Of a DNA stretch of 64,000 bases, positions 11,200 through 45,300 are shown piece by piece. The translations under genes were made by a program, and so were the position numbers. This DNA is from Telmatactis stephensoni (taxonomy: Eukaryota > Cnidaria > Anthozoa > Actiniaria > Isophelliidae): the NCBI GenBank assembly GCA_029948255.1, contig JALIZF010001430.1, positions 62,001 to 126,000 on the forward strand, written 5' to 3'. Positions within the stretch are counted from its first letter, which is position 1. The number at the start of each line of letters is the position of its first letter. The notes beneath the pieces were generated by a model. The model searched no databases, had not been told where the DNA came from, and saw only the letters and a list, made by a program, of their open reading frames with translations.

Positions 11200-12821
11200 T
11201 TAGCTATTCATGTACAATCTCATATTTCTTTCCCATGCTTTTTCTTTGCTTTCTTTCAGTCGTTTCTGTTTCTTTGATAAAGTCTTTTGAGATTCCTTTC
11301 GTTCTGTTTTCTTGGAGATTTTCTGTCTTTTTACAGCACTGTCATCATGTGGTCCAAAGTGTGTGACTCTAGGTTTGGAAGATTTGCTGTTACCAAGACC
11401 ATATCTGTCCCTTTTTAAGACTGTTTTTATGGGATATTTTCTTCCTTCACCTTCTGGACCAAGACCTAAGTATTTGAAACAAACAGTTCATTAATAAAGT
11501 GATTATTCAAGCAACATAAAATGTGGCCACAATTCTGTGTATTGTGATATAACCTGGGGGGGGGGGGGGGTACACCCATATATTTGCTATACAGGTATGT
11601 GCGCCGCTGGATAGGGTATGGTTTTTGGTCCTGCTGTCTTGAACAGGGTATACATTTTACCCAAAATTGTCTTAAACGGGATCTATAATTTTGACGAGAT
11701 CCCAAGCCATATCATCTTTTTGTGTCTTAGATAGGGTATTATATTCAAAATAAACAAAAAAGTGCTTCCTAAGCCGTTTTTTGTCTAATCATATGCAACG
11801 GATCGGAATCAAATGACGAGGCTAGGATCGATTTTCTTCTCTTTTGTCTTGAACAGGGTATGATTCTTTCACTTGAGTGTCTTAAACAGGGTCAGGTTTC
11901 TAGAACTCCGGCAGCACACCCCTACCCAAAATGGGGTTGAGTATATAGCTCAAAAACTAACATACCTTTTTCCTCATCCCAGCCTGACTTTACCATCAGC
12001 TGATAACCAGGATTATTCCCAGGGATAGAGTAATATACCTCTTTGGGTTTATGCTGGCAGTTGAACTGATGAACTGTTGAACTTTGATGTTTTTTCTGGT
12101 CCTCTGTAAATTCTTGCTGACAAACTACACACCAGAAAGTAACATTTTTGCTGGTGCGTCTTTTTCTAGGTGCCCTAGAGGCAATTGAAATAGAATCCCA
12201 ATTTTCAAAAAGAGAAATTACTGTTTGATTTTTGGCTAGTTTTGCAAGATCTAGAGCTGTTTGGCCTTTGGAATTGATTAAATCTTTCCACAGTGCACCC
12301 TTTCTAAGTAGGTATCTAACAACGTCTGTTTGCCCACTATATGCAGAACACATCAAGGCAGTCCAGCCATATTGATCACAACTATTAACATCCAATTCTG
12401 TATTTTCACTCAGTAATTTTTCTATTTCATTCAAGTTGCCATCTTGAGCTGTTTGTAGATATTTATTAACTAGACGAACATTTGTGCTTCCAATATCAAC
12501 ACTGCTACCAGTGGAACATTTACTGTCATCAGATGAAGCAACACTGGAAATTCGGCTTTTGTTGTGTTGATTTCGACGTTTTCTGGTTTTACTCCTGTAC
12601 TTGGACTGATCAAACGTCCGTGTACTCTCTCCTGTATTATTACAAGTACTAGTTTCATTGCTTGTTGTTGAAGCTAAAACGCTATTGTAAAACTCCTTAG
12701 CTTCGTCTCCAGATAACGTCCCTTTTCTCTGAGATTTCTCTTTTTCTCTCGTAAATGATTCACTTGAAGACCTTTCTGAGGCTCGTACGAAATTCAAGTA
12801 TAAGTTGGAGTCCGAACACAT
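11200..12821 (-). CDS. GPANK1: G-patch and ankyrin repeat protein (GPANK1 orthologue)
   Basis: Two exons, 11966-12821 and 11200-11465, join in phase 1 (GT-AG) into 373 residues; human GPANK1 has about 356. The order is: low-complexity Ser/Thr/Lys-rich N-terminus (1-110), ankyrin repeats (about 115-205, with YGWTALMCSAYSGQTDVVRY), a zinc-finger-like segment (WCVVCQQEF followed by a His-rich stretch), and a G-patch (PGYQLMVKSGWDEEKGLG, then GEGRKYPIKTVLKRDRYGLG) crossing the intron. A Lys-rich tail ends in RLYMNS. An in-frame stop lies eight codons upstream of the chosen ATG. G-patch proteins usually work with DEAH helicases in RNA processing; the exact role of GPANK1 is not settled. Confidence 0.93.
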
Positions 12822-13260
12822 ATCAAATAGATTTCCATAGAGAAGTTAAAATAGCTCTATAAACTGCGAAAAATTGACGTTATGTTTCTATTTCTAAATC
12901 TGTAAAATTTCAAAATGGAGGACAAGAATGAGCCAGCATTACGTGAGCAGCGGTTATACCACAAGACAGGAATCCCGAAATTTATTCGATTGGTGTGCAC
13001 GCAGTTGTGCACAGTTCGTGGTTCCGGAGTCCTCATGACAACCGTTTCGCGCAGTGGGTTTGGAAAAGCAATAATAACCACAGGATACGGCAAACGGAAT
13101 TCGCACCTGGCGTTTCACGTTTGGCACTCAAACGAAAGAGCAACGTTTCACGTTTACGACAAACGCAAAATGAGCAACCTTCGCGCTGAAACAGCAACGC
13201 CAGACGCGAAAAAAAGCAGGTCATGTGATCCTCTTTGCCGTTTGCTGTTTCCTGTGTACG
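12822..13260. other. Upstream region of GPANK1, no gene recognised
   Basis: This is the promoter side of GPANK1. A 125-codon plus-strand frame starting ATGGAGGAC near 12915 has no recognisable domain and runs into the tandem repeat at 13261. Bases 13090-13250 are rich in repeated GTTTCACGTTT and GCAAACG words in both orientations and look like a degraded repeat. Confidence 0.45.
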
Positions 13261-17961: not shown

Positions 17962-19134
17962 TGTTGTGAATTATGGGTTCCCTGTGTTATTCATAAACCA
18001 TAATTAACTAATTAGAACTGTGACGTAAGAATGTAAGCGCGCGGTGTCAGTGTAACATCAACTAATAAACGGTCTCGAAACACCAGCTAGTCTGCTCTCC
18101 CATCATTTACATCATAACAGCATGGAGTTTTGAGACACTGGTGCCGAAACCCGTTCGGTTTTATGAAAGACTTATCGGACTCATGAAAAGATGCCTAAAG
18201 AAGAGCATTGGCAAATCATCATTAAATATATTTGAGCTCAATACAGTCATCGCTGAAGTAGAAGCCGTCCTCAACAGTCGTCCACTAACCTACACGTACT
18301 CAGACATCCAAGATGGAACTCCCCTCACACCATCGCATTTCCTGTGTGGCCAGCGTCTGCTAAACTTGCCAGAGGAAGAATCAAGAGAAGATCCGCATGA
18401 CACCGAGTATGTACCACCAGGCTTCGAAACCGCCAAGTCCCTGAGGAGACGCGCGAAATATCACGAAACACTAATGAAATCCTTCTGGGCACGCTGGCGC
18501 AAAGAGTATCTGACGGGCCTAAGAGAGTTCCACAAGTCCAAAGGGGACAAAAGTCCAACAGAAATGAAAGCTGGAGACGTGGTGCTAGTGCATGACAATC
18601 TTCCAAGAAACAAATGGAAACTCGCAGTGGTGAAAAGTCTTCTTCCCGGAAAAGACGGCCGAGTTAGAGCCACCACTTTACGCATGAGCAAGGGGAACGA
18701 GTTTGTACGACCGATCGAAAAGCTATACCCGCTGGAATTATCTGAAGTTCTTGAAAAACAGCCTATGAGCAACAAGACCGAACAAGTTGAAACCTATGCA
18801 AGACCCAAGAGAGCTGCCGCGCAAAAGGCTTCAGAAAGAATAAAGCAGCAAGTTGAAGATGAAGTTAATGAACATACTGACTAAGCATAACTTTTCAACT
18901 GTAAGAACTGTAAAATGTCTGTATCTTGCGCTCGGGCAGTTTTGGCCGCCCGGGAGAGTGTTGTGAATTATGGGTTCCCTGTGTTATTCATAAACCATAA
19001 TTAACTAATTAGAACTGTGACGTAAGAATGTAAGCGCGCGGTGTCAGTGTAACATCAACTAATAAACGGTCTCGAAACACCAGCTAGTCTGCTCTCCCAT
19101 CATTTACATCATAACAGCATGGAGTTTTGAGACA
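17962..19134 (+). mobile_element. Miniature BEL/Pao LTR retrotransposon
   Basis: Two LTRs of 176 bp, 17962-18137 and 18959-19134, both TG...CA, appear identical. The 5' LTR is followed directly by a primer-binding-site-like TGGTGCCGAAACCCG (18139-18153). A purine-rich CGGGAGAG lies just before the 3' LTR. The 821-bp interior lacks gag, protease, reverse transcriptase, RNase H and the integrase catalytic core; only the integrase C-terminal region remains. No matching 4-6 bp target duplication is visible at the outer edges. Confidence 0.92.
18141..18884 (+). pseudogene. BEL/Pao pol fragment (integrase C-terminal region, DUF5641 type)
   Basis: An open frame of 247 codons begins at a GTG inside the primer binding site, with no ATG start. 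It matches the end of BEL/Pao polyproteins: FYERLIGLMKR, then EAVLNSRPLTY, then SHFLCGQRL, and the C-terminal barrel with GDVVLVHD and RNKWKLAVV. The integrase DDE residues lie in the deleted part, so it cannot be an active integrase. The open frame and identical LTRs suggest the truncated form transposed recently using proteins supplied by a full copy. Confidence 0.9.
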
Positions 19135-20817: not shown

Positions 20818-21241
20818 CATAAAAAAATAAAATATATAAATAAATCGCTTATAATGAAATCACTAACACTTGAGATTTTTCACAACATTTGAAATACACG
20901 TGGTCTGTACTATACATATATACGTAATGTCATGTTCTATGGCACTTGAATTTCACGTTGGATTAATGTATGTAAATACATTAAAACAAGACCTTAAGCC
21001 CATAGATGGACACAAATAAAAGAAAAGATATCGCGAAAGAGTGAAATAATTTTTTTTAATTCGAGAAATTGGGACATTTATTCAAAAGTTTTAAAATTAG
21101 ACTGTTTTGACGTTGAAATTTATTTTTAGGGAACGTTGACGTCATAGACCCACCTACGACGATGTCATATTTACAACAGTTGATTACCCTTCAGTTCATT
21201 CTGCTTCCGCGAAGAGAACAAATGATCAGCACTTCTGAGCA
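20818..21241 (+). promoter_or_regulatory. Upstream region of the DOK-like gene
   Basis: AT-rich DNA with no frame. A TGACGTCA octamer lies at about 21137-21144, roughly 100 bp upstream of the start. No TATA box was assigned with confidence. Confidence 0.35.
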
Positions 21242-21257
21242 ATGCCTAGCTCAGTAA
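21222..21257 (+). other. Short upstream ORF overlapping the DOK-like start codon
   Basis: An 11-codon frame, ATG at 21222 to TAA at 21255-21257, overlaps the main ATG (21242) in another frame. If transcription starts upstream of it, ribosomes would have to bypass or reinitiate to make the main protein. Confidence 0.45.
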
Positions 21258-24200
21258 ACTGTCAGATAGACTTTTCTCTACAGCTTCTCCTCCGAAAGAG
21301 GAGTGGAAAGGTACGATATTGAGCTCATTATGAGATGTAGTTAGCTCAGAAGTTGGAGAGAGAACTATTTACTTCCGAGTTCGAGTGAGAAGTTCGACAC
21401 GGGGAATACGTCTGCAGATTCGCCATAATCACTCCTACCGCTTTCCACTAATGAGCCGTTTTAAAAGTATGCCTTTCACAACATTTATTTATCCTTAAAA
21501 TATCTCTCATTTGTATATATTCTTGCAGTGGAAGAAAAGGATCGTCGTACTTAGAAGACCTTTGGACAACATCCAAAAACGTAAGTATAAATAAAATAAG
21601 TTAAAATCATCAGGTTATTCTTCTGTGTTTCCACGATGTCAAAGCAACAAGTCAGGCAGCAACCTTTATTATTTGTTTAATCTTATGGGATTTTAAATGA
21701 AATTTTAATGAAATTATCGAAGAAAAGAATAGGTGATGAGTGGGTCGAATGTTGTTCGCAAGTTTGTAAACATTGTCAAATGCAAATATCTCAAGTAACA
21801 CGATTTGACATCGGTAAATGAATATCTGTCGTTTGTGAATATCTAAATGTATCGATTTGCGAAATGAAGTAAACTTTCTCACATATTTTTGATGCTGAGA
21901 AAATTAGCGAATATTCAACTTCGGTATGTCCCCGCTGACCCTGGCTATATTACGTAAATAATATAAGGCCGTGTTTAGACGTTGTACAAAATTTTAACAA
22001 TGGCCGCTGATGTTCAGTATTGTTTGAACATCTCTGATCTAGATTTACATGTAACGAATGTCAATTTGGTACATTTAAGTAGTTCACGATTGTACTTCAT
22101 GGATGAACGATCATTTAATTACTTTGTCTGAACGTACGGAGGTAACTGTATCATGTGTCTCCATGAAGTATTTGTGTAGCACTTCCGGTTCATAAACTAT
22201 TTTTATTTATCTAAAATTTTAAATATTAGCCAAAGGTAAGGTAAGGTAAGGTGATCGTGTTCTGTGACAGCAAACTGAAAGATTGTTTTTTTTTGTCAGT
22301 TTAAATTTTTTACAACTTCGTTTTATGTTTTACATTTTCTTTCAGTTTAATCTGTTAGAACACTCGAACCATGAACACCTCAAGTTTTTTTTCTCCCCTA
22401 TTTTAAAATACATCCCTTGAGCCAAGTTCAAGTTCAAGTTCAATTCACACTTCTTTCACAATGTTACATGTTTCTTTTTTATGACAATATAAACAATAAA
22501 AATGAACAGTTAGGATATGTTTAGTTGGTTAAATATAAATTTTGGAAGTGTGTGTGGTAGCTAGAGGAGCAAGGCTTTTGGGCTGGCAACCGCCACTTGT
22601 TGATTTTAATAGAATTGGTGTCAATTGGAATGAGACTTATTTTGATCACTCGGTGTATTTGAACTCAGTGAATCATCTTGGAGTGTTTGAAGCAGTAGAA
22701 AGCTTAGAAAAGAATAATCTGAAAAAACTCTAAGTTTTCACAGTCTGAGTGTCCTCATTGTAAAACTAGGAAGATTCTGGGGTGTGCACATGTGTCTGTG
22801 TGGTCATATCTAAATGCCTAAAGGATGTCATATAAGATTAGGGGAACTCACGTTCTATTGGTTCACCTGATTTAGGCAAATCATTAAATGAATCAAATAA
22901 ATACACTTAATAACTTAATAACCCAGACACATAACAGTTATTTATAGTTATCATCCTTGAAATTTCACCCTTTGAACTTTAACATTTATAACATTATTTA
23001 GAAATAAAACTATCATTATTCCTGATCAGCTATATTAGGATATATAAAGAGAGACGTGACATAGATACCCTTGAAATGTCGTCCAGACAATTCAAAGATT
23101 ACCAATATGACGTGCAATAGCATAGTGAAAGACTGCACAATGCAGATATAAATAGGAATGAGTCATCAGTGATCTATATCGGTATATCAAATGTCATTTA
23201 AATAGAAGCTTGACATATATTGAATATAATTTATTAGTGTCATCTAGTTAAAATATTGTATCTAATTCAAACATGATCAACATATTTATTTATCACAATT
23301 AATTTGTTATATTGGTAAGACAAATGTAATTAATGACAATCACAAGATTTATGAAAAAGGCAGTTCAACATCAATGATGTGATGCAAAAATATATCTTAT
23401 GTTAATGCCATGTACAGAAAATTGAAATGGCAATGTCTATTTATGGTACTTGTGGTGTGAATAGCATGAGTTCAACAATTGTCACTAATCTATTTATATT
23501 TAGTGTTAATCAGGTTTGGCACCACAATATAATATTGTACAATTATAATAGTGAGAGTTTGTGGTGTAATAGAAGTGTAATTGAAAATTAATATCCTTTT
23601 TAATTTATGTCTTTGTGCTGTGAAACTGTCAAAAGCTAATAGGAATATGAAACAGCTAATTATTTTTCTGCTTTTTGTATTTATCAAACTAATTCATGAG
23701 AAAACACAATTATAGAAAATCATAACTGTGAAGGAGTTTTTAAATCAGCAAGAGATTCATCTTGACTTACATACAACTTTAACACTTTTCTCAACCAAAA
23801 TCACCTTGATCTTGAATTACAAGATTATTGTTGAACTAAAAATAATCTTGTAATTCACGGTCCCCATGGGACATGTTCCTTCTTACCTGTAAACCTTACT
23901 TTAGCAATAAATTATCTGATGATGGACAGTGGAGACTGCCCAAAATATAATTTACTCACAAAATTAAAACTTCTCGTCATGATCATTCTATAATATCACT
24001 AAATTAGCCCAGAAAAATATCTTTATATTACTTATTTAAATAAATAAGTAGAGTGCACGCACTTAATCCGTGAAACATAGATAGTACAAAATAGTGCTAA
24101 ATTATGGTAATTCCTTTGTTTCCTATTGTCTAATCAATACTATTTAGTAGTAATTAGTAGTGTTTGTTTCACGGATTAAGTGCATGGACTCTAATAATAT

Positions 24201-27200
24201 AATATTCAAATAATAAATTAAGTAATATAAAAATATGAAGGGTGTGGCTCGCCATTTTAAAACCATGCAGAATCTTAAATGTTCACTACTATTAATTTGT
24301 AGATTATCTTGATGTACACCGACCAGTTGCAAAAGCCATAAAGAAGTTTGGTTCAGCTTTTTCTGAAGAGATTGAAATTTGTCCTCATAGTCACATTGTG
24401 ATTAAAGACACTGATGAGTTTTCACAAGACAAAAGCAATATGCTGGGATTGATATCAGTGGGTCGAAGTAAAGGAAAGAAATCTTATCTTTTTGCTTCCA
24501 CTGGCAATAATGATCTTGACAACCTTGCTGATGCCATTAAGCAAATATGTCAAGGTAAACAGTAACAATATTTGTTATAAAATCAGTAGTATTATCATAA
24601 TTTTAAGTTGTCAAGCAAATTATAATCTAATTTGCTTGAAAAGATTTCACATAAATAATATTATATTTAAATGGGGTACTGTAGCACTTGCAATCATAGC
24701 AATTGAATGTTCTGGTTGTACATACAATAGTCCCCTTCACAGTTCTCTGTGCCATCTTGAAAGGTAGCCATGCCTTTACATCGAAGCGAGACAAACAGTG
24801 AGTGTGCAATGATAGAGACCTGTGAATAATAATTGTCCTAGGTGTTAAAAAAGGTATCTATCATTGCATGCTCACTGTTCATCTCACTTCGATGCAAAGG
24901 CACGGCTACCTTTCAAGATGGCGCAGGGAACTGTGAAGGGGACTATTGTACAATAGTTGTCATGAATGGATTTCTCAGCACCCTGCAAGAAGTCGTTTTC
25001 GTGTCATATCTCAAAGAGAAGGTAGTTAGGAGAGGAAAACCACTGCTTGCAGGGTAGGATTTCAAATGCAGCAAATTTGACTGAAATTTTAAATTCAAAG
25101 TGGATCATTAGTTTGAACACTTTGCTTTGGCAAAAGGTTTAACATACAATCCTGCCAGCCATTTGTAAAGAACTGTGATTAACTCCAAATTAATGTAGTC
25201 TATCAGTACATGTACAATGGCATGGAATAATCTCTTCTCTGTAGAACCTCAGAACATCAGTAATGACAGGACTTTTACTACATTTTTTGCAGTCTCGACC
25301 TTTGAAGTGTCCATTGAGTCTGGTCAAAGCAATGAAATTCCCACAGGGGCAGCCTTGTTGCACATCTGGCCAAACAATGCATGTTTGACATCCAAGATTC
25401 CATTCATGAAAGTACTTCGAAGATGGCAGCTTGCTGAGCCTCTAGAGGCATTCAGATGGGAAAAATATGCTTTTTATCTTTACGACTACAAGAACCCTAA
25501 TCATCCATTATTCTTGTATGTGAGGTCAGAAGATGTCAAGATTATTCAGCAAGAATTAGATAGGTGTAAAGAGAATAGTACCATGGCAATTGCTAAGGAG
25601 TGTACCCCAAATGATTCCGAATCAGCATCTGAAGTAAAAGAAACTGTGGATGTTTGCAACAATAACCACCTTTGTGTGGATGATGTTGCATCAAAGTTAC
25701 CAAAAAGAAGCCAAAGCTTGCCAACAAACATGGAAAAAACAATCCAGAGAAAGTCAAACCAAAACAGTGGAGTATATGAGCATGTGGAAATTAAGTATCC
25801 TCAACATAAAAAAACTCGTCGCTGTAATTCAGATACAGCAATTATACGACAATCCCATAAAGAGGAAGTAAATTTCTTAGAAAATCAAAATAAAGCACCA
25901 CCATTGGATGGGAAAGATATTACATCTAAAATAGTAGACAATTGGAATATCAAAACTTTTGCAAATGAAATATTAGATTCACAAGAAAACAATTTAAAAA
26001 CCTCAATAACAAATGGCATTCAACATCAAGATAATAGTCAATACTATGCAAATGTTCAACTGAGACCTCCATGCTATATTTACACAAATGTTAACACAAT
26101 GGTGAGTGAAGAGGAAAGCCAAGAGATGCCTTACACATATGTTAACATCTTTTCTGGTAGCAGTTTTAAGGGTTGCTATGAAAACTGGGAACAGCAAAGT
26201 AGTATTTACTCAGAGATTTCACCACTCAAGGCATATGATGCACCTCCACTACCACCACGCCCATATCGGCCACAGCTTCCCCCACGACTTCATGGTACTA
26301 ATAAACTAAATAGTTCTGGTCCAGAAAGACCTCCTCCATTACCTCCAAAGCCAAAAGGCAGTGGTCCATCATGTCCTAAAGTTACCGAGACCTGGACAGC
26401 TCCAAGAATTCATGTGGCAGTCTTTACATCAACTGCTGTCATTGGACGTGTTTGGTTCTTGCGAGTGGCATTTCTGCATCAAGATGATAAGGATTCTACA
26501 TTCAAGGTCAGTGTGATATAATAACTAATTTGTACTTGAACTCAACTATACAATAAAAGTTTTAAAAATACATGAACTTATCACAGAAAAAAATCATCAT
26601 CATTGGCACCATCATCATCATCACCATCATTATCATCATGTGAAGACCCTGCAAGATGGATGCACATTTATTCAGAGAGACCAATAAGTCATTCTTGCTA
26701 TTATTGATTTCTAGAGAGTAATGAATATTGAAGCACTCAGTAATCATAAGTTTCATCAGCTCCAGTCCTTAGAAGTCTCATCTGATATCACTGTTAGTGT
26801 CAACCCAACAATGGCTGGCTTTGATTTGCTCAAGTACAGTCAACAGGTAAATAATCAATTTATCAGGCTGGAGCAAGTGTAGCTCAGGGGCCAGTTGTAC
26901 GAAGGGTGAATAGTGCTATCCAGAGCATAAATCCCTATCCAGCAGATAAAATCTATACAAAATCTATACAGTGGATAACTTTATCCAACCTTCGTACAAC
27001 CCGGCCCAGGTGGTTAGTGTGTGGCTTTCTGATGCAAGAGGTCCAGAGTTCAATTCTCTGTAGGATCACCTCACACTTGTTTTGACTTCTTTCCATTCCG
27101 TGTAACTTTAATTAGCTTAAAACGGAGCAATGAGGGGGGTAAAGAGCACAGTGTTGGCTTCCTGGGAGACCAGCATTCAGATGAAGGAACTACCAACACT

Positions 27201-28926
27201 AAATAATTATATTATTTAGTGCTTTACCTTTACCTTTATCCAGGAGGGGAGGATTTAATAATAACTTAAATTGTAGTATGGATGTAGATATGCACTGCAG
27301 CCAGTTTTTGGCTTGCAAAATTTGGAAACACAGTTTTTGAAAGAGGAAATGTCCAACACTCATCTGATGAGTTATGATTGGCATATGTATTACAGCCAGT
27401 TTTTTCTTGTAAAATTTCTAAATCCATCTTGGGACAAAAAATAATAATTTGCCTTATCCTACTGCTAAGTTAGGTAGGAAAGGGTTAATGAGGGATAGGG
27501 GTGTCCAAGCACAAGGGACATTTGACTTTTAAGAAGAATTTTTGGTCAAAATTCCCACCTTCCGTGCCCTCCCTCCCTGATTTCACATACAAAATACAAC
27601 TGTGAGTACAGTACTCTACTTAGCAGCTTGTTTGTACAGGCCACACAGGGTCTTAATGAATTTGTAGATGATAGTATTCATTCGTTTTTGTAGGAGATTG
27701 AATTGAATGATCTTAATAACCTACGGAAGGGTGACTGGTTCATCATCGAATTCCACATTCAAAATTCAGATGAAACAAAAGATTACTTTGTAAGCAATGT
27801 ATCCATTGGACCTACATCAACATGTTGCCGTCGAGCTTGTAAAATTGAGATGACAGTTGATGAAGTCTTTCAAAGACAGGTATGTGTTACAAGTTAGAGT
27901 ACTTCATATCAATCCTTTTAAAACAAAGCCAGAAGTAAATTAAATCTAAGCTGCTGTACATATAGGGGTTATATAATTATAAAGAGCATATTTCTTTAAA
28001 GTGTTTCAATGACATTTTTAATATCCGAGCTTTTGGGCCTCATTATTAGATTGGTTTGGCAAGCATGATGTGACAGGAAAGAGGATGCCATGCATGTTGA
28101 CAAATTTTATTCAAAACGACTATTGCATCACTGATGTCAAAAGAGGATGCAAAAAACAAGTGGAATGGGCTCAGGACTGAATAGGGCATTACAGTGACAT
28201 TGTTACAGTAGTCACACAGCAAACGAGTGTGATACATGTAAATTCGTCATTTCATGTCCTGTCTGGTGTCATGTCAAGTTTTCTAAATACTGTAAACCTA
28301 TTTACTACATTATATGAATTGACGTGTGTGAATAAGTTAGAAGTGCTACGTCAAACTCACTAGGGTCTGTGACAATCGTATTTTGACTCCACATGTCGTG
28401 GAATCTTTAATCAGTTGACTGATGAAGGCAGTGAGAGACAGTCAAAATATCTCCATTTTTTTATTTAATAATTTAATTTTGGTCTGGGTGCAGAAGAAAT
28501 TAATATTTAGTAGCTAATGCTTCCAGAGCAAGGGATCAATCAACTTTTTTCAAGTTTCTATTTTTCTTATTCTGTTCTTTTTAGGTCAACCATAAGGGTC
28601 CATCAAACCCAGTCCGATCACCATCCCTGTTACAAGACTACAACAAACGACAAAGACTTTGTCGAGCATTAGACATTACCATTAATTCCCAATGTCATGA
28701 TTGGCGACAAGTGGCAGGCTCTCTAGGCTTTACTTATCCCGAAATTATTGAGCTTCAAGACAAAGCTTGTAAATCTGGAACATTTTCTCCAACAGATGCA
28801 GTACTAACAATTTGGGAACAAAGAGAACCAAATTGTACTGTAGATAAACTAGTTAATATTTTAAGAGAAATAGGACGATTAGATGTAGTGCAGGACCTAG
28901 GCTATAGCATAACACTAGAAAGCTAG
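21242..28926 (+). CDS. DOK7-like PH-PTB adaptor with UPA-like region and C-terminal death domain
   Basis: Seven exons, 21242-21310, 21529-21580, 24303-24554, 25293-26506, 26715-26846, 27694-27879 and 28585-28926, have GT-AG introns and compatible phases (0,1,1,0,0,0), giving 748 residues. The PH domain (about 8-122) has the DOK7-like strand pair LLLRKRSGK / WKKRIVVLRRP. The IRS-type PTB (about 126-215) runs from STFEVSIESG through LRRWQL and LFLYVRSEDV. The tail (216-490) holds YEHV, YANV, YTNV, YVNI, YENW and YSEI, then APPLPPRPYRPQLPPR and ERPPPLPPKPKG. An UPA-like beta region follows (about 490-630). The UNC5-type death domain (about 650-740) shows RQRLCRALD, DWRQVAGSLGF and SPTDAVLTIWE. 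DOK proteins dock on activated receptor tyrosine kinases; UPA-death modules belong to UNC5/PIDD/ankyrin relatives. The first two small exons rest on phase and motif alone. Confidence 0.87.
24050..24192. mobile_element. MITE in intron 2 of the DOK-like gene
   Basis: Inverted ends of about 28 bp: AGAGTGCACGCACTTAATCC at the left and GGATTAAGTGCATGGACTCT at the right. It lies about 110 bp upstream of exon 3. No coding capacity. Confidence 0.85.
24724..24950. mobile_element. YY1-motif-bearing foldback MITE, copy 1
   Basis: A nearly complete palindrome of 227 bp in intron 3 of the DOK-like gene: TACAATAGTCCCCTTCACAG at the left and its complement at the right. Each arm carries an AAGATGGCG / CGCCATCTT-like word, a YY1 core. 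A second copy lies at 53530-53746. Confidence 0.9.
26870..27240 (+). repeat. tRNA-derived SINE interrupted by a MITE
   Basis: A tRNA-like head starts at GTGTAGCTCAGG, is cut at about 26888, and resumes at 27008 with TGGTTAGTGTGTGGC, followed by B-box-like AGAGTTCAATTCT. The 3' part runs to about 27240 and ends in an inverted AATAATTATATTATT and pyrimidine words. It lies in intron 5 of the DOK-like gene. The head matches the remnant at 3125-3190. Confidence 0.7.
26888..27007. mobile_element. MITE nested in the SINE A box
   Basis: Terminal inverted repeats: GGGCCAGTTGTACGAAGG at the left, CCTTCGTACAACCCGGCCC at the right. The interior has repeated ATCTATACA. CAGG borders both sides, consistent with a 4-bp target duplication, though it overlaps the element ends. 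The insertion splits the tRNA-like head. Confidence 0.8.
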
Positions 28927-31609
28927 ATGAATAATATTGACTACAATTGAAACTTTGTGCAAGGACACCCTTGACAGTTTGCACTCTACAGTTTCTGTTG
29001 CCATAGAGCTTTCGGTAACAGTACATTGTAATGGACCAAATTGTACATGTAAGAGAGTTAGTTATTATAGAGGTGGTCACTGTAGAGACGTACAATAGTT
29101 ATGGAACAGAGTTGGCTGTTAGTAAAGATTTGGCTGTACATACTAATACACTCTGCAAGTCACAGAAAGCCTACAGTAGAATTGACAACCCTCAGTCATT
29201 GACAGAATCCAAGCACAGACTGTTTTCATTGATTGATGACACAATGTAGCTAATTTTTAGTTTCTCAAGGCAGGACCTACTTATAATTTTGCAAATAACA
29301 CTTTTTATAATTGATACAGTAAACTGAGGTTTGAGTTTCATTCATCTACTGGAATCTGGGTATTATCATAAGCGTATCTCACTCCAAATATGAATACCTC
29401 TGGGTCCCAAAAGATGACCAACTTCCACACATACACTTTACCACTCTTGTACAATATTTTTATAACAGTTTCCACCAATAATTATTAGCCATTAATAACT
29501 GTATGATGATATAAAATAATGATGATAAAAAAATCTCACATCTGGAAATTCTAACTATTTTGTATAATTTTATTTAATCAGGTGCTCTTTATATTAAATA
29601 AGACATTTAAAGCAGGGCAGGACTGTGATGAAAATCACTCCAAACCTTGATTTAAAAATTCAGGCATAACAGTTTTTGTAAATATAATTATCATAAATAG
29701 ACTCAGCCAAGAGAAATGTTTTTATTCAAACATATTATATATGACATTAGCAACTGTAAACAACTTAGACTGATTGCTCTTTAACTACCAGTTACTGAAA
29801 AGAGAGTAATAATTTTAGAGCTGACATTTTGTAAACTGCTGTTCATTTAGCCCTACCATCTTAAAACATCAATGAACTGCATTATTATTTTATTCAGTAT
29901 GGTTGACTGAGATGATGATGCCTTTGTAAGTGCTTTCCAGAGATTTAGACAGCCCCAAATATGAAGTAGTTATCCAGCAACTGTCTGAAGATCATGGACC
30001 ATCACAAAAAAGATAGCAGGATATTGCAAGGCCTGGACTTCACAAGCAATTGAAGCTGAAGCAGAAGCAACAATACACCCAGACATATTGTTGCATTTCT
30101 CCCCTAGGTGTCATTAAATACAACAAGCAGTGTATTACTGTGTTTACAAATCTTGCTTCTCCTCATGCTTCTGGCACTTGTGGAAACCAGGCCCGTTTTC
30201 AAAAGCACATGACTGTGCAGTTGATGCTTGGAAAAAAAGACTAAACATTGCCTCTGGAAAGCACTGCTACTTAATATCTTATTTTCGAAAAGAATGTTAA
30301 AATATTAGCTGTAGTGATAGGTTGAACTAGTTGGTAGTTTGAGATAGTATAAGTTTTTACTGGTTGCAGCTTTATGCACTGTCTGACTGATATTCAGTCA
30401 TTTTATTGTTGATTTGATAAAGAATTCATAAAGTAGGAACATACTGTTCGATATTGTATTTTGCTAAATAAAATAATTTGTGAAAATTTATCTGCCTTAG
30501 GCTGTTTTTGGCTTTAAGTTACAATATGGCACAATTGATTATTTCTCAATCTTAAAATGGATAGCCCAAAAAAACAGCAGCTGCCTCTCATAAAACGGGG
30601 AGCTACAAGGTAATTTGATAAACACTATAAAAAAGAGTACATTATTACCCATCTAAATGAGTGTTAACATATCAAACATAGACTATATTACTAGTCTGCT
30701 GCAGCTATACATTCTGGGACTGTTAAAGTCCCTATGACGGATAATATTTTATTTTCAAACTCAGTTCTTGAAAGAAAGCATACATGTAGTAAAGATCTTT
30801 TAATCTTGTTTTTCCTCACTCCATATTTTCTGAGATATAAAGGTTTCAAATTTCAAAATGCAAATGTGATGACGTAAGAGGAGTAATCATTTATTATACA
30901 AAAACAAGAGAATTTAAATTACTTGTATTTTTCCATTTTGTAACTCATTTCCATTGGCAAAGCCTGTTGTTTAGTAAAAAATTTGGCTCTCGAATTGAAG
31001 TCCTCTTTTTGTAAAACCCATGAGAAGTTTGCAGTGTTGGCCTCCTCTTACGTCATCAAATTTGCATTTTGACATTTGAAACCTTCATATCTCAGAAAAT
31101 ACGAGGTAAGGAAAACCTGGGTAAAAAGATCTATGCTCTCTAAAAATAACTAAGTTTGAAATTAAAAAGTTATGTGTCATAAGGACTTTAATTCAGTAAA
31201 ATAATGCTGAACAAATGAGAATATGTCTGCTGTGTGCAAATTATATCGCTATTATTAATAGTGATATAATTTGCATTGAGTACTAGTAAGATAAGTGCTC
31301 TGGAGCAGTTTAAAAATTGAATGAAACAAGAAAACACAAAACAGATCTATGAGGAAGTGTGATCAAAGTTCTGAGATGTTTGAGCACCTAAAATGGTTTG
31401 TAAAAATCAATTACAAAAAAAATATTAATATTTCCCTCATGTTCTCAGGTATTATCAATGAGACTTAATTTTCAACATGCAATGACTATTAAACAGCCAT
31501 CATAACAGTGATCACACACCATTAAACCAACTTCTTATAAATTATAATTCCTATTTTACATTATACTATGATTAAAATTCACTGTCAGTACTAACCAGGT
31601 CAAGATTGT
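28927..31609. other. Intergenic region between convergent DOK-like gene and COQ7
   Basis: This holds the 3' UTRs of both genes. I cannot pick the polyadenylation sites: AATAAA near 30465 (plus) is one option. A possible MITE is at 29929-30265 (14-bp perfect inverted ends AGTGCTTTCCAGAG). A clearer foldback element at 30723-31191 is listed separately. No further gene is recognised. Confidence 0.5.
30723..31191. mobile_element. Foldback element with long imperfect arms
   Basis: The ends are TTAAAGTCC and GGACTTTAA. The arms (about 30723-30890 and 31030-31191) match inverted over ~160 bp with several mismatches; shared words include TTTCAAAT, ATATCTCAGAAAATA and CTTACGTCAT. The terminal octamer is the same as in the element at 56577-57151. 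Confidence 0.8.
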
Positions 31610-34600
31610 TCAGACTCTCTCTGCTATCTTTATTGCTATTTTACAACCTGTTTGTATAGTTTTCTTGAGCAATTCATACATTGGGGCCTGATAAATAAAA
31701 TAAGAGAAAAGTAAGAAACTATATACCAGTATTACATGTTATTTAATTAAGAGGAGATTTTTTCCAATGACGAGCAATAATGGCAAAAAGCGCCAAAAAC
31801 TAGACCTTTGTGCAAGTTTTAATCCAAATTTTGGATTAAAATTTTGTTCTGGATTAACACTCAAATCCTTTTTCTAGCAGTTAAAAACTGATGTACCAAG
31901 ATAAAATACTTGTTTACAATAGATTTTTGAACTGTACAAAGACTTTTTCTTGAAGTTGTGTTCCAAGGGAGTAAGCTTTTTCAAGCTTAATATAAAGAAA
32001 ACATACAGCAAATGAGCAAATGAAGGCCTAAACCTCATTTTCGATCCAAATTTTCGCTTTGGATTAACACTTTGATTCAACTTTCATCGGCCAAAACTAC
32101 TGACAAACAACTTATTAAAAAACTTTCTAACAAAAATGATTTTAGTTTTGTACAACAGCTATTCTTCAACTCAGGAGTTTTTGTCGTTCACTGCTCGAAC
32201 TTGAAAAAAATCCCTCTTAATTATACAATATCAATTAATTGTGTTCTTACAATAAGTAACATCTAGATATATATCTTTTTATAAATTAAAGTGTTCTTTC
32301 AAGGAAAGACACTTTTTCATCAGTGCTTAAGCCTGATGGACACCGAAAAGTCTACAATACTCTCATATGGACATCAAAGTCATCCCATTTTTTCTGCAAC
32401 ATTGTAACCAACACAGTTGCACCATGTTTCCACCCTTACATGTATAACAGTTGCGTGCCACATTTCACATAAAAATTACAAAATTAGAATCAAGTTCTAC
32501 AGATCTGTAAAGCCTGATTTCCATTTGATCGCTACAATTGCTACAATCGCTATGATCGATCGCCAGGATCGCTGTGATCCCTGGACAGTAGTTTCCATAT
32601 GATCGCCCTGATCACCACGATTGCCGAGATAGAAAAAATTATACATGTATCTCGGCGATTGCGATTGCCACAATCGCTGCAATTGCTGGAGTTGTGTTTC
32701 CATGTTTCCATTTGATCACTGCAATCAACAAAATACGTTTTTGGGCGATCCTGGTGATCATAGCGATCAAATGGAAACCGGCTTAATGGTTTCTGTAATG
32801 TGAGATTTGTTGCAGGTGAGTCAGGAAGTGGTTGGTAAAATGACTGGCTGTAGAGACAACTTTGGTAGGTTTTGCCCAACTTTCTTGGACAACTAAGACA
32901 ACATTTGGGAATAAATATCTCTATTTCTTGCCCTGGGCTCACAGTAACATGCCTTCCAACCTTAATAAACCCTCTGCATTTGAACTTCTGCAGCATTTAT
33001 AATTCTGCATTTAAATATTATTTTGAGGCAAACTATACACACCTGTTCTGCTCCATATTCTATGCCTTTATCTAAATGCTCTAACTCATCATCTCGAAAT
33101 TTTTGAATAACCTAAGTGCAGACAAAAACAAAAATTTAGTAAGATAAAGTAAAAATATCTTAAAGTGTATAATTATGCATTCAGACTAAGCCTAAATACC
33201 TGTAGTAGTTCTTTATGTTCTTCTTGGATACCATCTTTTAGTAATTCTCTAAGTTGACTGAAATAAGATTACCACCGTGTGCAAAATTACACATCTCGCC
33301 AGACTATAGTCTCTATTGGGAATTTGGTCAATAGGATACCAAAAATCCAGACAGAGGCAGAGTTTTCTATACTAATGTCTGAACACTTTGTTGGCTTCAC
33401 GGTAGCCTTTTGACCAAATCCTAATGAAGACTTTAGTCTGGCGGGGCGCGTTACTATGCACACGGTAGTAATCAAAGATATTATCATATGATACGTATTT
33501 AGCTCCATGCATGGTATGAAGAATAACCTTTGGAAATGATCACTTGACAGGGCACATACCGTACAGATATTTCAAGATGGTCCTAAAAAACCCATATCTG
33601 GACCATGACCAGTGCATGTGTCAAAAATACAAATAAAATTGTGATAAAAACAGCCAAATGCTTACTGACTGAGTTACAAAAATGTAGGTCAGTCCAGACG
33701 GGAAAATATTTGGCTCTTGCGTGGTCATTTGTATGGACCTTGCTGTGCTCATATGACCCGACCTCAAGCCAAATATTTTTCAGGCCGGCCCTCCCACTCA
33801 GTCAATAGGTACATAATAATAGAAAGGGTTTCATTGATATTAGCAATAGCAGGTTCCACTACTAAGATAGGTGTCTGAAATACAGATGTCCTACCATTAA
33901 AATATTGTATAACTAGAAAAAAATAGCCAGTGGTGAATGGCAAAACAGACGGCAATAAACCACCGGTAACCACCTATTAATGAAACCCCTGAATAGTATC
34001 AATAAGTCTCATATCATCCTTGGGCTGGATTAGCTAGTGTGCACTCTAGTTACTCAGGTATTTAACAGTGTTCATATTCCTTTGCCTAAAAGTATTTCCC
34101 ATGATAGGAAGATGAATGCCGTTCAATCATTCTAACCCCTCTGTCTATATGGCGCGTTTTTGGGGTCAAAATTAGAAATGCGTAACTCATGTAAATTACT
34201 TCTGAATTCAAAACTCTTAACGCGATTTTACTTCCAAAACGTATTTCTTTTAGAAACATTACTTTTGAAAAAGGTAACACATGTGCGCACTGACTTTTAA
34301 ATCCGCTACTTACGCAATTTGATTTGAATTAGTTGCGAACACTCACATTACTCACGTATTACTTGCGGACGCTCATATTACTTGCGAATACTGTTGCGAA
34401 CGCTCATATTACTTGCGAATACGTGGCGAACACTCGCCTTACTTGCGAACACGTATTACTTGCGAACACTCGTATTACTTGCGAACGCTCATATTACTTG
34501 CGAATACGTATTACTTGCGGAGGCTCACATTACTTGCGAACACTCACATTGCAAACGCTCACATTACTTGCAAACACTCAAATTACTTGCAAACGCTCAA

Positions 34601-37600
34601 ATTACTTGCAAACGCTCACATTACTTGCGAACACTCACATTACTTGCGAACATGCACTCATTACTTTCAAAGTACTTTTCGCCAGGCGTTCCTCGCCAAC
34701 CCAGATCAGGTGAATATATGCGCCTGCCATATAAAAGCCATGTTTGTTGATGCTGACGTCTTTCGATTGCTACGATATGTGTACAGCTCTTCTATTAACA
34801 ATATTCGAACCTTCTCATAATAGTCCTTTACTAGCAAAAAATGAATCCAAATGTTCTCCGGGAGTGCACTCAGCGCCTCATTGAGACGGCAGAACTTATT
34901 ACGAACTCGCCTGTCTCAAACCCAAGCCACTACATGTACTTCGACACCGGTAACATCAACTGCCACATCAACCCAGAGGCAGAGTACGTCAACTGTCGCA
35001 GGCACGACGAATTCAGCCTCATCTGCCCGGGAAGAACATAACAGGGTGTTCGGCTTCAGACCAAAGCCGGCTATGAGGAGAAGTCGGATACCCACCACAA
35101 GCCGCAGATCAACAAGACCATCTCCTTACGGCTCGACTAGGGGCAAACAACCGGCTTGGTCGCGCGCGTCTGCCTAGCGAATTCTGGCCAGCAACATCCT
35201 CCCTCAACTGAGGAAAGGATTAACCTAACGGTCAACGGGCTGGGAGAAAAAAAGATCTCCTTCCCGCAGGAGGGCAATCCAGCCCAAGTGCACGAGGCAA
35301 TCCTGGACGCCTTCCCGGCCCTAGAAGAAGGTGGCGGGTATGAAATCCTTCGAACTGGTGATGGGCGGTCGAAGGATTTCAGTGATCCCCATGCCTTCGG
35401 CTGGATTTTCTGTCCCTTACTTGAAAAGCGTTTTCGGGCAGGCAAAAGGATATCTCCGTCCATTACAAAAAGACGAAGGTGATTCAAATCAAAATGTTTA
35501 CTTTCCAAAGGGTATAAATCTCATCTTATACATGTAGAATCTAATCTAATTTAATTTCCTCATACAAATGATTCTACATTTGAATCAGGAGCCCATTACT
35601 TAACGACTCAACTTTTCAGGGATCATGTTACTGATTAGTTCAGTTTATGACTCCTACCGATAATCTTAAGAAAAACACTAGAATTTTGCTCTTTTGAAAA
35701 TAGTGCTAAAAATTACTAGGGTATAAAAGTGGAATTTTTTCACTTTCAAAAGATTTAAGTCAGTAGGAACTGTTTGCAAGGAGCCTGAAAATAAACATGA
35801 TCCTCTTTCCCTTCTCTCGATGGTAAATACCCCGCTTCCAGCACCACCACCCCCGTGATCCTATGCAAGCCTAGAACTCCATCATGAACACGTGTTGTAA
35901 CTCTCACCTTCGAAGTGTCTTCTTCATGACCAATTGCCATGTTCGTAAGTAATGTGAGTGTTCGCAAGTAATGTGAGCGTTCGCAAGTAATGTGAGCGTT
36001 TGCAATGTGAGTGTTCGCAAGTAATGTGAGCCTCCGCAAGTAATACGTATTCGCAAGTAATGTGAGCGTTCGCAAGTAATGCGAGTGTTTCGCCACGTAA
36101 TATGAGCGTTTGCAACGTATTCGCAAGTAATATGAGCGTCCGCAAGTAATACGTGAGTAATGTGAGTGTTCACAACTAATTCAAATCAAATTGCGTAAGT
36201 AGCGGATTTAAAAGTCAGTGCGCACATGTGTTACCTTTTTCAAAAGTAATGTTTCTAAAAGAAATACGTTTTGGAAGTAAAATCGCGTTAAGAGTTTTGA
36301 ATTCAGAAGTAATTTACATGAGTTACGCATTTCTAATTTTGACCCCAAAAATGCGCCATATGTCTATCATTGCTTTGTCCAATGGAAAAATGAGTCAGGG
36401 AGGTTGAAATACTAATAGTGAGATAATTTAAAGCTTCACTGTCTAAGAAGATTATTAAAAACAAGGCTGAGTATGATTTAAGGTCACAAGACAGTGAGAA
36501 ATGCAGTTAAAGATCTATCAACCTTATACCTACTTATCATAATGATCTCCAATGACTTCTTCTATTGCTACTGTACAAGCCATTGCTGCTTCTTTTCCAA
36601 GTAATGCTGTACCAGCACCTGTAGAATAAGTTACAAGTACATGTATAAGAGCAAGGTGCCAGTAGGTGGTTGGTAAGGTGTCAGGAAGTGGTTGGTAAGA
36701 TGTCAGTAAGTGGTTGGTAAGGTGTCAGGAAGTGGTTGGTAAGATGTCAGTAAGTAGTTGGTAAGGTGTCAGGAAGTGGTTGGTAAGGTATCAGGAAGTG
36801 GTTGGTAAAGTGTCAGTAAATGGTTGGTAACGTGTCAGTAAATGGTTGGTAAGGTATCAGTGAGTGGTTGGTAACGTGTCAGTAAGTGGTTGGTAAGGTA
36901 TCAGGACGTGCTTGGTAAGGTATCAGGAAGTGCTTGGTAAGGTGTCAGGAAGTGCTTGGTAAGGTGTCAGTAAGTGGTTGGTAAGGTATCAGGAAGTGGT
37001 TGGTAGAGTGATTTTTATTCAACCCATGAAAGAAAGCTTACTTACCTATTTGTACTAGTTGACAAACAACAAAGAAAACAATGAGTTTAGAGTGTACTAG
37101 TAACTGTTATGGGTACCATTTTTTTACAGGTCAAATAAAATCACTCTACAGAATCAGTAAATGGTTGGAAAGGTGTCAGTGAGTGGTTGGAAAGGTGTCA
37201 GTAAGTGGTTGGTAAGGTGTCAGTGAGTGGTTGGTAGAGTGTCAGTGAGTGGTTGGTAAGGTGTCAGTAAATGGTTGGTAAGGTGTCAGTGAGTGGTTGG
37301 TAAGGTGTCAGTGAGTGGTTGGTAAGGCGTCAGTGAGTGGTTGGTAGAGTGTCAGTGATTGGTAAGGTGTCAGTAAATGGTTGGTAAGGTGTCAGTAAAT
37401 GGTTGGTAAGGTATCAGTAAATGGTTGGTAGAGTGTCAGTGAGCGATTGGTAAGGTATCAGTGAGTGGTAGGTAATGTGTCAGTAAGTGGTTGGTAAAGT
37501 GTCAGTAAGTTGTTTGTAATGTGTCAGGTGGTTGGACTTATGATAAGTGTTAGCTAATAAGTGTTGCTAGTCAATAGGATTTTAGTCGATCAATCACTAA

Positions 37601-42300: not shown

Positions 42301-45300
42301 TGGCATATTACGCGCGCTCTGATTGGTCGAACAACCATGTGTGATTAGAGTACACACACATAGATGGCGTCATCGAATCTTACGCGGGTTCTGATTGGTT
42401 GGAATGTTTCGATAAAGATTATATAAAACAGATAGATGTTAAATAGATTCTATTTTCCCGTGCATCTGTTCTCTAATAGACTTTCAGATGACGTCAAAAT
42501 GTGATGAGAACAAAAAAGTACGCCATGAGACTAACAGGACCCACGAAAAAATGGAATTCATTTATTTTATATAATATTCAATCAATCAGAACGCGCGTAA
42601 GATTCTATGACGTCATCTATGCGTGTGTACTGTAATCATACACGGTTCTCGACCAATCAGCGCGCGTACGTAATATACCAATTATTATATATAAAATGCA
42701 ATAGTTAATTTTGACTAGAATAATAATGTCATAAAGAAAGCTTCCTAGTCCCTATATATCCATCACATGATCCCTAAATGGAACGGCTATAGCAGAGGTC
42801 TTACATCTCCACCGACAAAGTGTGGCCATGAAGTTGTCGGTGTGTGGTATGACCGCTTACTACACTACAGGGCCCACTGTAATTGGCGAAAGCTGTTGTG
42901 GTGTTCCTGCCTTCATCTGTTCATTGGAAGCAGTAAGCTTATAAACTAAACTGGGTGTGGTCTCAAGTACATGTATCCCATGTAATCACTTTTGATCTGA
43001 TTTATAGTTAGGAGTCTACGTGGTACTCCGGCTACGTCACACTAATCCTTATAAATTTGAAAACGCATTGTTTTTGCTATGGTTAAGCCTTCTGTCCACA
43101 CTAAAAGGGGATTTGTCTATTGTGCGAAGCCCGCGAGGAAAAAATATACCTTTTCATTTATCTGGAATTAGTCCAATATGGAAGTAGTCTCCATTCAATT
43201 AGTTCGGACTGACTTAGCACAGGGGGTGTTTACATGGCACTAGGATCATCTTAGCAGGCGAATCATCCTACTCGCTATACATTTATTGCATTCTGTTTAC
43301 ATGGAAATTTGTGTCTTCACTTCGGGTACTAGGATCATCCTACTAAACAGAATGCAGTAAATGTATAGCAGCTAGGATGATTCGTCTGCTAGGATGATCC
43401 TAGTGCTAGGATGATCCTAGTGCTAGGATAATCCTAGTGCCATGTTAACACCCCCTTAATGAGATACAAGCGATATATATATATATATATGGAAGCTGAT
43501 ATTCTTCACTGATACGTAATCATGGAGTGTATTTATCATCTTTAGACATACGAGGAAGAGAAGACTTTGCAAGACTTTTTTAGAATTGTGGCTACGAACA
43601 GGGGCAGGAAGGGCGTAGAGTTTGTCTCTTTGACAGAAGGTAATGACTTCATCTAAACGACTTTGGATCCCTGATCTTCGTGACATACGATACTTCACAT
43701 ATACAGTATATACACCTAATATAAGATTTTTTCTTGTGGCGGGCCATTGACAGCCGCCACTTTATATTATCAGTTCTTCAGTCTTTGAGGTTTAGTTTCT
43801 TTAAATCGTTTTAATTTGACAATCTTTTGTCGCAAGAGTCCGCTCGCCGGTCCGTCTGCGCTAATGTCAAAATTGAAATGCGCACGTAATCCTGATTGAA
43901 AAAAGGGATACATGCACAGAAGCTAAGCTCTTTATCAGATCGAGATCGTAATTACAATTTGGTTCACGTCACTACTGTAGCTCAGTGCAATCTATAGGTA
44001 GCATGCAAAACTGCAAAAAAATAAATGCATTCTTGTGCGTCTAACTGATTTCCCGGCCAAGTCCATATAGGGCTTGGATTCTATGATTCTGAACAGTCAG
44101 TGATTTTTTCAATTCGTTGTAATTAGTGTATATAATAGCATGAATCGAAAACATACCCCTCTAAATTAAACTACATGTGTCAAGTAAAGGAGGGGGAGGG
44201 GGAGGTATGAGGATATGGAACTAGGTTAAGATGCCAGGAATGTGTGTGTCTCTAATAAGGCCTACAATCATTGCCAGAATTGTTGGCACGATTTTGTCGG
44301 AGTGCGCGCGCACAGTAGACGGTAATGAAATTGGCTCCCCCCTCTCCCCCCTGTACAATGTTGCTGTGAAAGTCCCGACACCTACCACTTGGCAATCAGT
44401 CCGAAATACCTTTTAGCTAGCAGCAACATTGAACGGGGGGAGGGGAGTCCAAAGGTACAGCCGCAAAGTTTGCATTTATTTTTAAGAATATCCGTCAAAT
44501 GCACATCATGCCAACTAATTTTGGCAAGGGTTGTAGTTCAAAAGCCGTACTTTCCAGTATACCGTTCTCGATTCAAATTCTATTCCACTGGCTGGCTGTG
44601 GTGGTACTGAATGACTAGGCTAAGCACTGAAGACGAGGACGAGGACAAGTTTCCATTGAAGCAACTTTCTAATTACTCAATGAAATTGATTATTAATGTC
44701 TAACAAGGTCTTTACTGCATGGTACCGGTATTGCTTGGGTATTTAATTAACGAAAATGAAGCGGTTCTTGTTACCCTAAATTTCCTTTCGGTCATGCAAT
44801 AACCAATATCGCAGATTGCCATTCGCCATTCGCCCCGTCAACCTTTTTTGAAATAGCTTTATAAAGACTGAAATATATATGAACCTTTGAGAAACTGCAA
44901 TAATTTATTTTTATTTATTTATTTATTCAACTTCCACTGAGTGCATAAAATATAATGATAAATAATTATAAATGGTTGAATAATAACTTAATAATGCAAG
45001 GAAAAAACTCAGTGAGGGACAGTCACGACAGAGCAAGCTCCAACTAGGTGAAAGCCCAATAAAATAATGATAAAAAGAGGTATATATATATAAAAAAAAG
45101 AATGAATAAATTCTGACACTATATAACAACATATATCAATACTTTAAGAAACTCCTATAATAAGTTCAATTAATACCTATTAGAAACAACACTGGCGAAA
45201 GCTAGTTAAATTCCTAGTGGAATAACACTTTGGACACAAGGACTTCCAAGTATAAACGTTATCCTGATCAAACGTATTAATAAGGGCTTTTTTATAGTGT

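Follow-up and report, generated by a model that had tools for sequence, protein, structure and literature searches.

A single gene predicted in the anthozoan Telmatactis stephensoni joins a DOK7-like head to an UNC5-type UPA-death module. The gene lies on the plus strand at 21242-28926 of the window, the stretch of 64,000 nucleotides from contig JALIZF010001430.1 that was analysed. Its product runs from a PH-like part and an IRS/DOK-type PTB domain through a tyrosine- and proline-rich tail to a UPA domain and a death domain. This layout in one protein, proposed in an earlier note on the same DNA, is kept in other anthozoans. Docking proteins of receptor kinases and adaptors with a death domain are treated as separate toolkits, and this conserved protein merges both; the domain combination would let membrane signals feed directly into death-domain assembly. 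Among the matches listed by literature searches on the fusion or its setting, none described a joined DOK7-like and UPA-death protein.

Seven exons are predicted for the gene; they join in phase into 748 residues and a stop codon, and all six introns have a GT donor and an AG acceptor. Exon 1 (21242-21310) starts at the first ATG past an in-frame TGA at 21236, encodes residues 1-23 with the start of the PH-like domain, and ends after GK in phase 0. Exon 2 (21529-21580), which contains WKKRIVVLRRP and PH-like strands 1-2, and exon 3 (24303-24554), which holds the remainder of the PH-like domain, both end in phase 1, the latter inside V125. The PTB domain, the tyrosine/proline tail and the first UPA strands are located in the single open frame of exon 4 (25293-26506). 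Exons 5 (26715-26846) and 6 (27694-27879) encode further parts of the UPA domain, and exon 7 (28585-28926) encodes a linker, the death domain and the stop, all on the plus strand. The exons were also searched by tblastn with the Actinia orthologue as the query, which is independent of the gene model in the earlier note. Exons 3 to 7 were placed at the predicted positions with E values from 1.25e-04 (exon 3) to 7.9e-41 (exon 4). Exon 2 was matched in place with a non-significant E of 3.5, and the 23 codons of exon 1 gave no match with this query; both exons could be aligned to the Actinia orthologue at the protein level. The splice sites and the placement of exons 3 to 7 supported the in-phase frame of seven exons described earlier. 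The frame of exon 4 stayed open for 440 codons; when 25001-29000 was shuffled 300 times by mononucleotide and read in three frames, open runs reached 195 at most. Intron 3 also contains a 99-nt inverted repeat (24723-24950), with arms 90% complementary and 30 nt between them, resembling a small foldback element or MITE.

A search for relatives among 5.8 billion protein sequences scored the 7994 candidates with most words in common with the query, and four proteins had an E of 0.01 or lower. In Actinia tenebrosa, isoform X2 of LOC116302193 was 33% identical across 98% of the query. Nematostella, a laboratory species, carries the member LOC116618546, whose isoform X2 (P0002) showed 42% identity over 49% of the query; this entry is without most of the PH part. 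The other two matches were unnamed fragments (P0003 and P0004) covering exon 4. An alignment-based profile search recovered only the two fragments among 7982 scored candidates and lost the full-length orthologues, and the C-terminal part of the Actinia protein as the query matched only the two anemones. Judged from the sequences scored in these searches, the architecture is kept in two sea anemones, Actinia and Nematostella, where PTB, tail, UPA and death domain occur together in the order first read in Telmatactis.

In the head, the IRS/DOK-type PTB domain covers residues 125-217 (25293-25570). A whole-protein structural model of the Actinia orthologue contained an IRS-type PTB fold as found in the DOK family, and the PH-PTB part of Dok7 was its top Foldseek match. 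The Z of the PTB match was 13.9 for Dok7, tied with FERM F3 domains at 13.8. The profile match to Dok-7 was weak, with an E of 0.008 for the whole chain and 0.12 for the PTB stretch, and Pfam reported IRS-PTB in one of the five members of the alignment (E 0.071). The top structural match and the profile match together agree with the PTB domain assigned in the earlier note. The PH domain named there has indirect support, as a PH-like region. The Foldseek alignment to Dok7, which extended up to 237 columns, and the intron positions speak for it, whereas the PH part was modelled at low confidence and its stretch gave nothing significant against the Dok7 profile (1.7 bits, an alignment that pairs exon 2 with Dok7 GKKWKSRWLVLRKP and is not significant alone). 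PH was also absent from the Pfam matches of the three sequences of the five-member alignment that reach that far, two of which hold the whole PH part. The structure-model alignment left out tiny exon fragments. The phases of introns 1 to 3 are 0, 1 and 1 in both the predicted gene and human DOK7. Intron 1 precedes an aligned Trp, intron 3 splits an aligned Val (V125 here, V111 in DOK7), and intron 2 is in the same loop as in DOK7 but at a different residue. Hence, the PH-PTB region has intron positions of the DOK7 type in a comparison with human DOK7 alone among the DOK genes.

R158, R159 and R174 of DOK7 are the arginines of its phosphotyrosine pocket. None of the five aligned members has an arginine at any of these positions, the residues being E/Q/Q/A/A at R158, A/N/Q/G/Q at R159 and N/D/N/E/Q at R174. 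The R158-R159 columns were also seen against 3ml4, and the R174 column is aligned with less certainty. In the available text of one report, R158Q is a disease mutation of DOK7 (PMC10117378). Judging from the alignment, the PTB domain probably does not recognise phosphotyrosine in the manner of DOK7. Since the pocket arginines are missing in all five members, any receptor contact is probably phosphotyrosine-independent. Their loss weakens the receptor-docking step, and ordinary docking to phosphotyrosine on an activated receptor, as implied by the earlier reading, is not supported.

Three YxN motifs were found in the tail, at Y388 (26081-26089), Y407 (YVN, 26138-26146) and Y420 (YEN, 26177-26185), and each is invariant in all five members. 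YxN is the motif bound by the SH2 domain of Grb2. Residues 381-425 contain 14 invariant columns out of 45, compared with 3 of 160 in residues 221-380. When the YxN counts were compared with 5000 shuffles, the fractions were 0.0354 for Nematostella, 0.0186 for the predicted protein and 0.006 for Actinia, and 0.0002 and 0 of 5000 for the two fragments; with these fractions, the argument rests on the conservation of the motifs and not on their number. The proline-rich SH3-type motifs PLPPRP, QLPPR and PLPPKP (26246-26359) were read in the alignment, and PLPPRP and PLPPKP were also in the motif listing. A tail with candidate tyrosine sites for SH2 proteins, a feature of the DOK family, is therefore predicted here from the three conserved YxN motifs.

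At the C-terminus, the death fold reported for exon 7 was confirmed by Pfam PF00531, which matched above the cut-off (E 3.6e-12) and places the death domain at residues 658-740 (28651-28899). The UPA domain, at residues 495-635 (26402-27879, exons 4-6), was assigned from models of the Actinia orthologue and the alignment. Since the structural match list of the whole-protein model was filled by the PTB domain, the UPA-death part was folded alone. One of the five models was good (mean pLDDT 68.0; the others 58.7, 51.4, 47.2 and 46.0). The Actinia model matched UNC5B first and then ankyrin-B (ZU5-ZU5-UPA-DD) and NLRP1, with the UPA domains of NLRP1 and CARD8 among the matches; of UNC5B, only residues 688-941 were aligned. 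These results supported the UPA-like region before the death domain and the likeness of the C-terminal part to UNC5B, both put forward earlier. The UPA alone gave no UPA-family match by sequence, and a UPA-only profile gave four weak unrelated matches in the PDB (best E 0.29). The UNC5B sequence match spans just the UPA end and the death domain. For the death domain alone, MyD88 scored best in the single-sequence search, FADD, MyD88 and UNC5B were close together in the profiles, and the matches included the assembly-forming death domains of MyD88, FADD and RIPK1. The label of a UNC5-type death domain thus stands for the UPA and death domain taken together, where sequence profile and structural matches give a UPA-death module as in the UNC5 family, and the UNC5 link is not clear for the death domain by itself. 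A MyD88-only reading was rejected because a UPA precedes the death domain. ZU5 is the usual lock on UPA-death modules; it was not found in Pfam scans, and the region before the UPA is proline-rich and modelled at low confidence. Weak Pfam matches to YkoP (best E 0.01), DUF3127, Menorin, DMPK_coil and FAD_binding_8, below the cut-off where shown, were set aside.

Identity to the predicted protein was 73/141 in Actinia and 66/141 in Nematostella for the UPA, 49/91 and 58/92 for the death domain, and 33/91 and 30/90 for the PTB domain. The C-terminal UPA-death module appears to be under strong constraint. Its two domains are the best conserved parts against both anemones, which argues against a decaying passenger.

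We propose, with slightly less than even confidence, that the protein is a membrane-bound docking adaptor with a DOK7-like head, a tail of YxN and SH3-type motifs and a UPA-death part of the UNC5 kind, and that its clustering at a receptor would nucleate death-domain assembly. The PH-like part would anchor the protein at the membrane, and the head would dimerise as in DOK7. The PTB domain would bind a receptor without phosphotyrosine, in the style in which FRS2 binds FGFR. The receptor or an associated tyrosine kinase would phosphorylate the YxN motifs, and Grb2-type SH2-SH3 proteins would be recruited. UPA-UPA contacts, with no ZU5 lock, would reduce the threshold for death-domain oligomers, comparable to the role of UPA for the CARD in NLRP1 and CARD8. 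In the available text of one study, UPA promotes CARD assembly in NLRP1 and CARD8 and lowers the CARD filament concentration from 15 to 0.25 μM in CARD8 (PMC7794386); the available text of another reports that the PH-PTB part of DOK7 dimerises, promoting MuSK phosphorylation (PMC10117378). By analogy with these two observations, head clustering at the membrane would bring the UPA-death modules together. Caspase, NF-kB or plain scaffolding are candidate outputs. We infer that the signalling role would be proximity-triggered death-domain assembly, through which the adaptor may be coupled to cell death. A bolder form of this proposal, which we put forward as speculative and rather unlikely, is that anthozoans evolved a direct wire linking membrane receptors with death-fold assembly. 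An adaptor derived from DOK7 and independent of phosphotyrosine would carry an unlocked UPA-death part that polymerises on receptor clustering, and Grb2-type docking and death-domain signalling would be decided on one molecule. A UPA apparently free of ZU5, together with a PTB domain without the phosphotyrosine pocket, would offer a case in which domain shuffling that links growth with death or immune signalling in cnidarians can be tested.

The predicted protein resembles DOK7, the PH-PTB adaptor of MuSK, in the order of a PH-like part and a PTB domain, in being matched first by the fold of the Actinia model, in the phases of introns 1-3 and in a tyrosine-bearing tail. It differs from DOK7 in the absence of arginines at R158, R159 and R174 in all five members, in the added UPA-death part, and in having YxN as the conserved tail sites. 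UNC5B is a transmembrane netrin receptor with a cytoplasmic ZU5-UPA-death part, whereas the predicted protein has no transmembrane stretch by hydropathy (highest 19-residue value 1.49, inside the UPA), no ZU5 was found in it, and the DOK7-like head replaces the receptor. In the C-terminal UPA-CARD fragments of NLRP1 and CARD8, as apparently in the predicted protein, a UPA that lacks a covalent ZU5 is followed by a death-fold domain, but here this domain is a death domain and not a CARD, and no FIIND was found in Pfam scans. In FRS2-type proteins the tail serves SH2 proteins. FRS2 and the cnidarian Frs2-related PH-PTB proteins are similar to the predicted protein as membrane docking proteins with a PTB domain and such a tail; the predicted protein starts with MPSSVN and lacks the N-terminal myristoylation start (MG) of FRS2. 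The cnidarian proteins are described in a paper whose main text, as far as available, mentions neither death nor UPA (PMC7260276). MyD88 and FADD share sequence similarity in the death domain, but neither TIR nor DED was found in the predicted protein by Pfam scan.

The best surviving alternative, possible but doubtful in our view, is a docking scaffold in which the UPA and death domain would only give structure or promote oligomerisation, as in ankyrins, and would have no link to death or immune signalling. The second structural match, ankyrin-B, is consistent with it, as is the uncertain function ascribed to the ankyrin death domain in the available text of PMC5135030. The best conserved tail sites also resemble growth-factor docking sites; however, the death domain and the UPA are conserved to a similar degree, and the former resembles those of MyD88, FADD and RIPK1, which form assemblies. 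More improbable is an adaptor similar to a dependence receptor, which would promote death-domain signalling when unbound and be silenced by receptor engagement. UNC5 acts as a dependence receptor, and the nearest fold is that of its cytoplasmic UPA-death part, but no ZU5 lock was found here. Two separate genes, DOK-like and UPA-death, wrongly joined, are very unlikely and close to refuted, since the unbroken exon 25293-26506, a stretch open also in P0003 and P0004 (with apparent read-through into introns at both same borders), encodes both the PTB domain and the start of the UPA, and each of the Actinia and Nematostella proteins combines PTB, tail, UPA and death domain; this reading was rejected, and the single-gene join of the earlier note is retained.

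Several other features were observed in the window. Two tandem arrays (34332-34652 and 35940-36180) have an identical 19-nt consensus unit but on opposite strands, and flank open stretches at 34845-35520; the two may belong to a single element whose ends are inverted tandem repeats. At 36653-37528, a 22-nt unit is repeated about 40 times as a minisatellite. Retroelement pieces were found at 18069-18881 on the plus strand (DUF5641, presumably of the BEL/Pao type) and at 45183-46517 on the minus strand (reverse transcriptase). Exons of a TauD-type dioxygenase (Pfam PF02668; 1210-2932, minus strand), which we take to be TMLHE/BBOX1-like, and of a protein kinase (PF00069; 5030-7534, plus strand), presumably testis-specific-kinase-like, are also present, together with an ankyrin-repeat protein (11925-12845) and a CRAL/TRIO (SEC14-like) exon (53771-54163), both on the minus strand.
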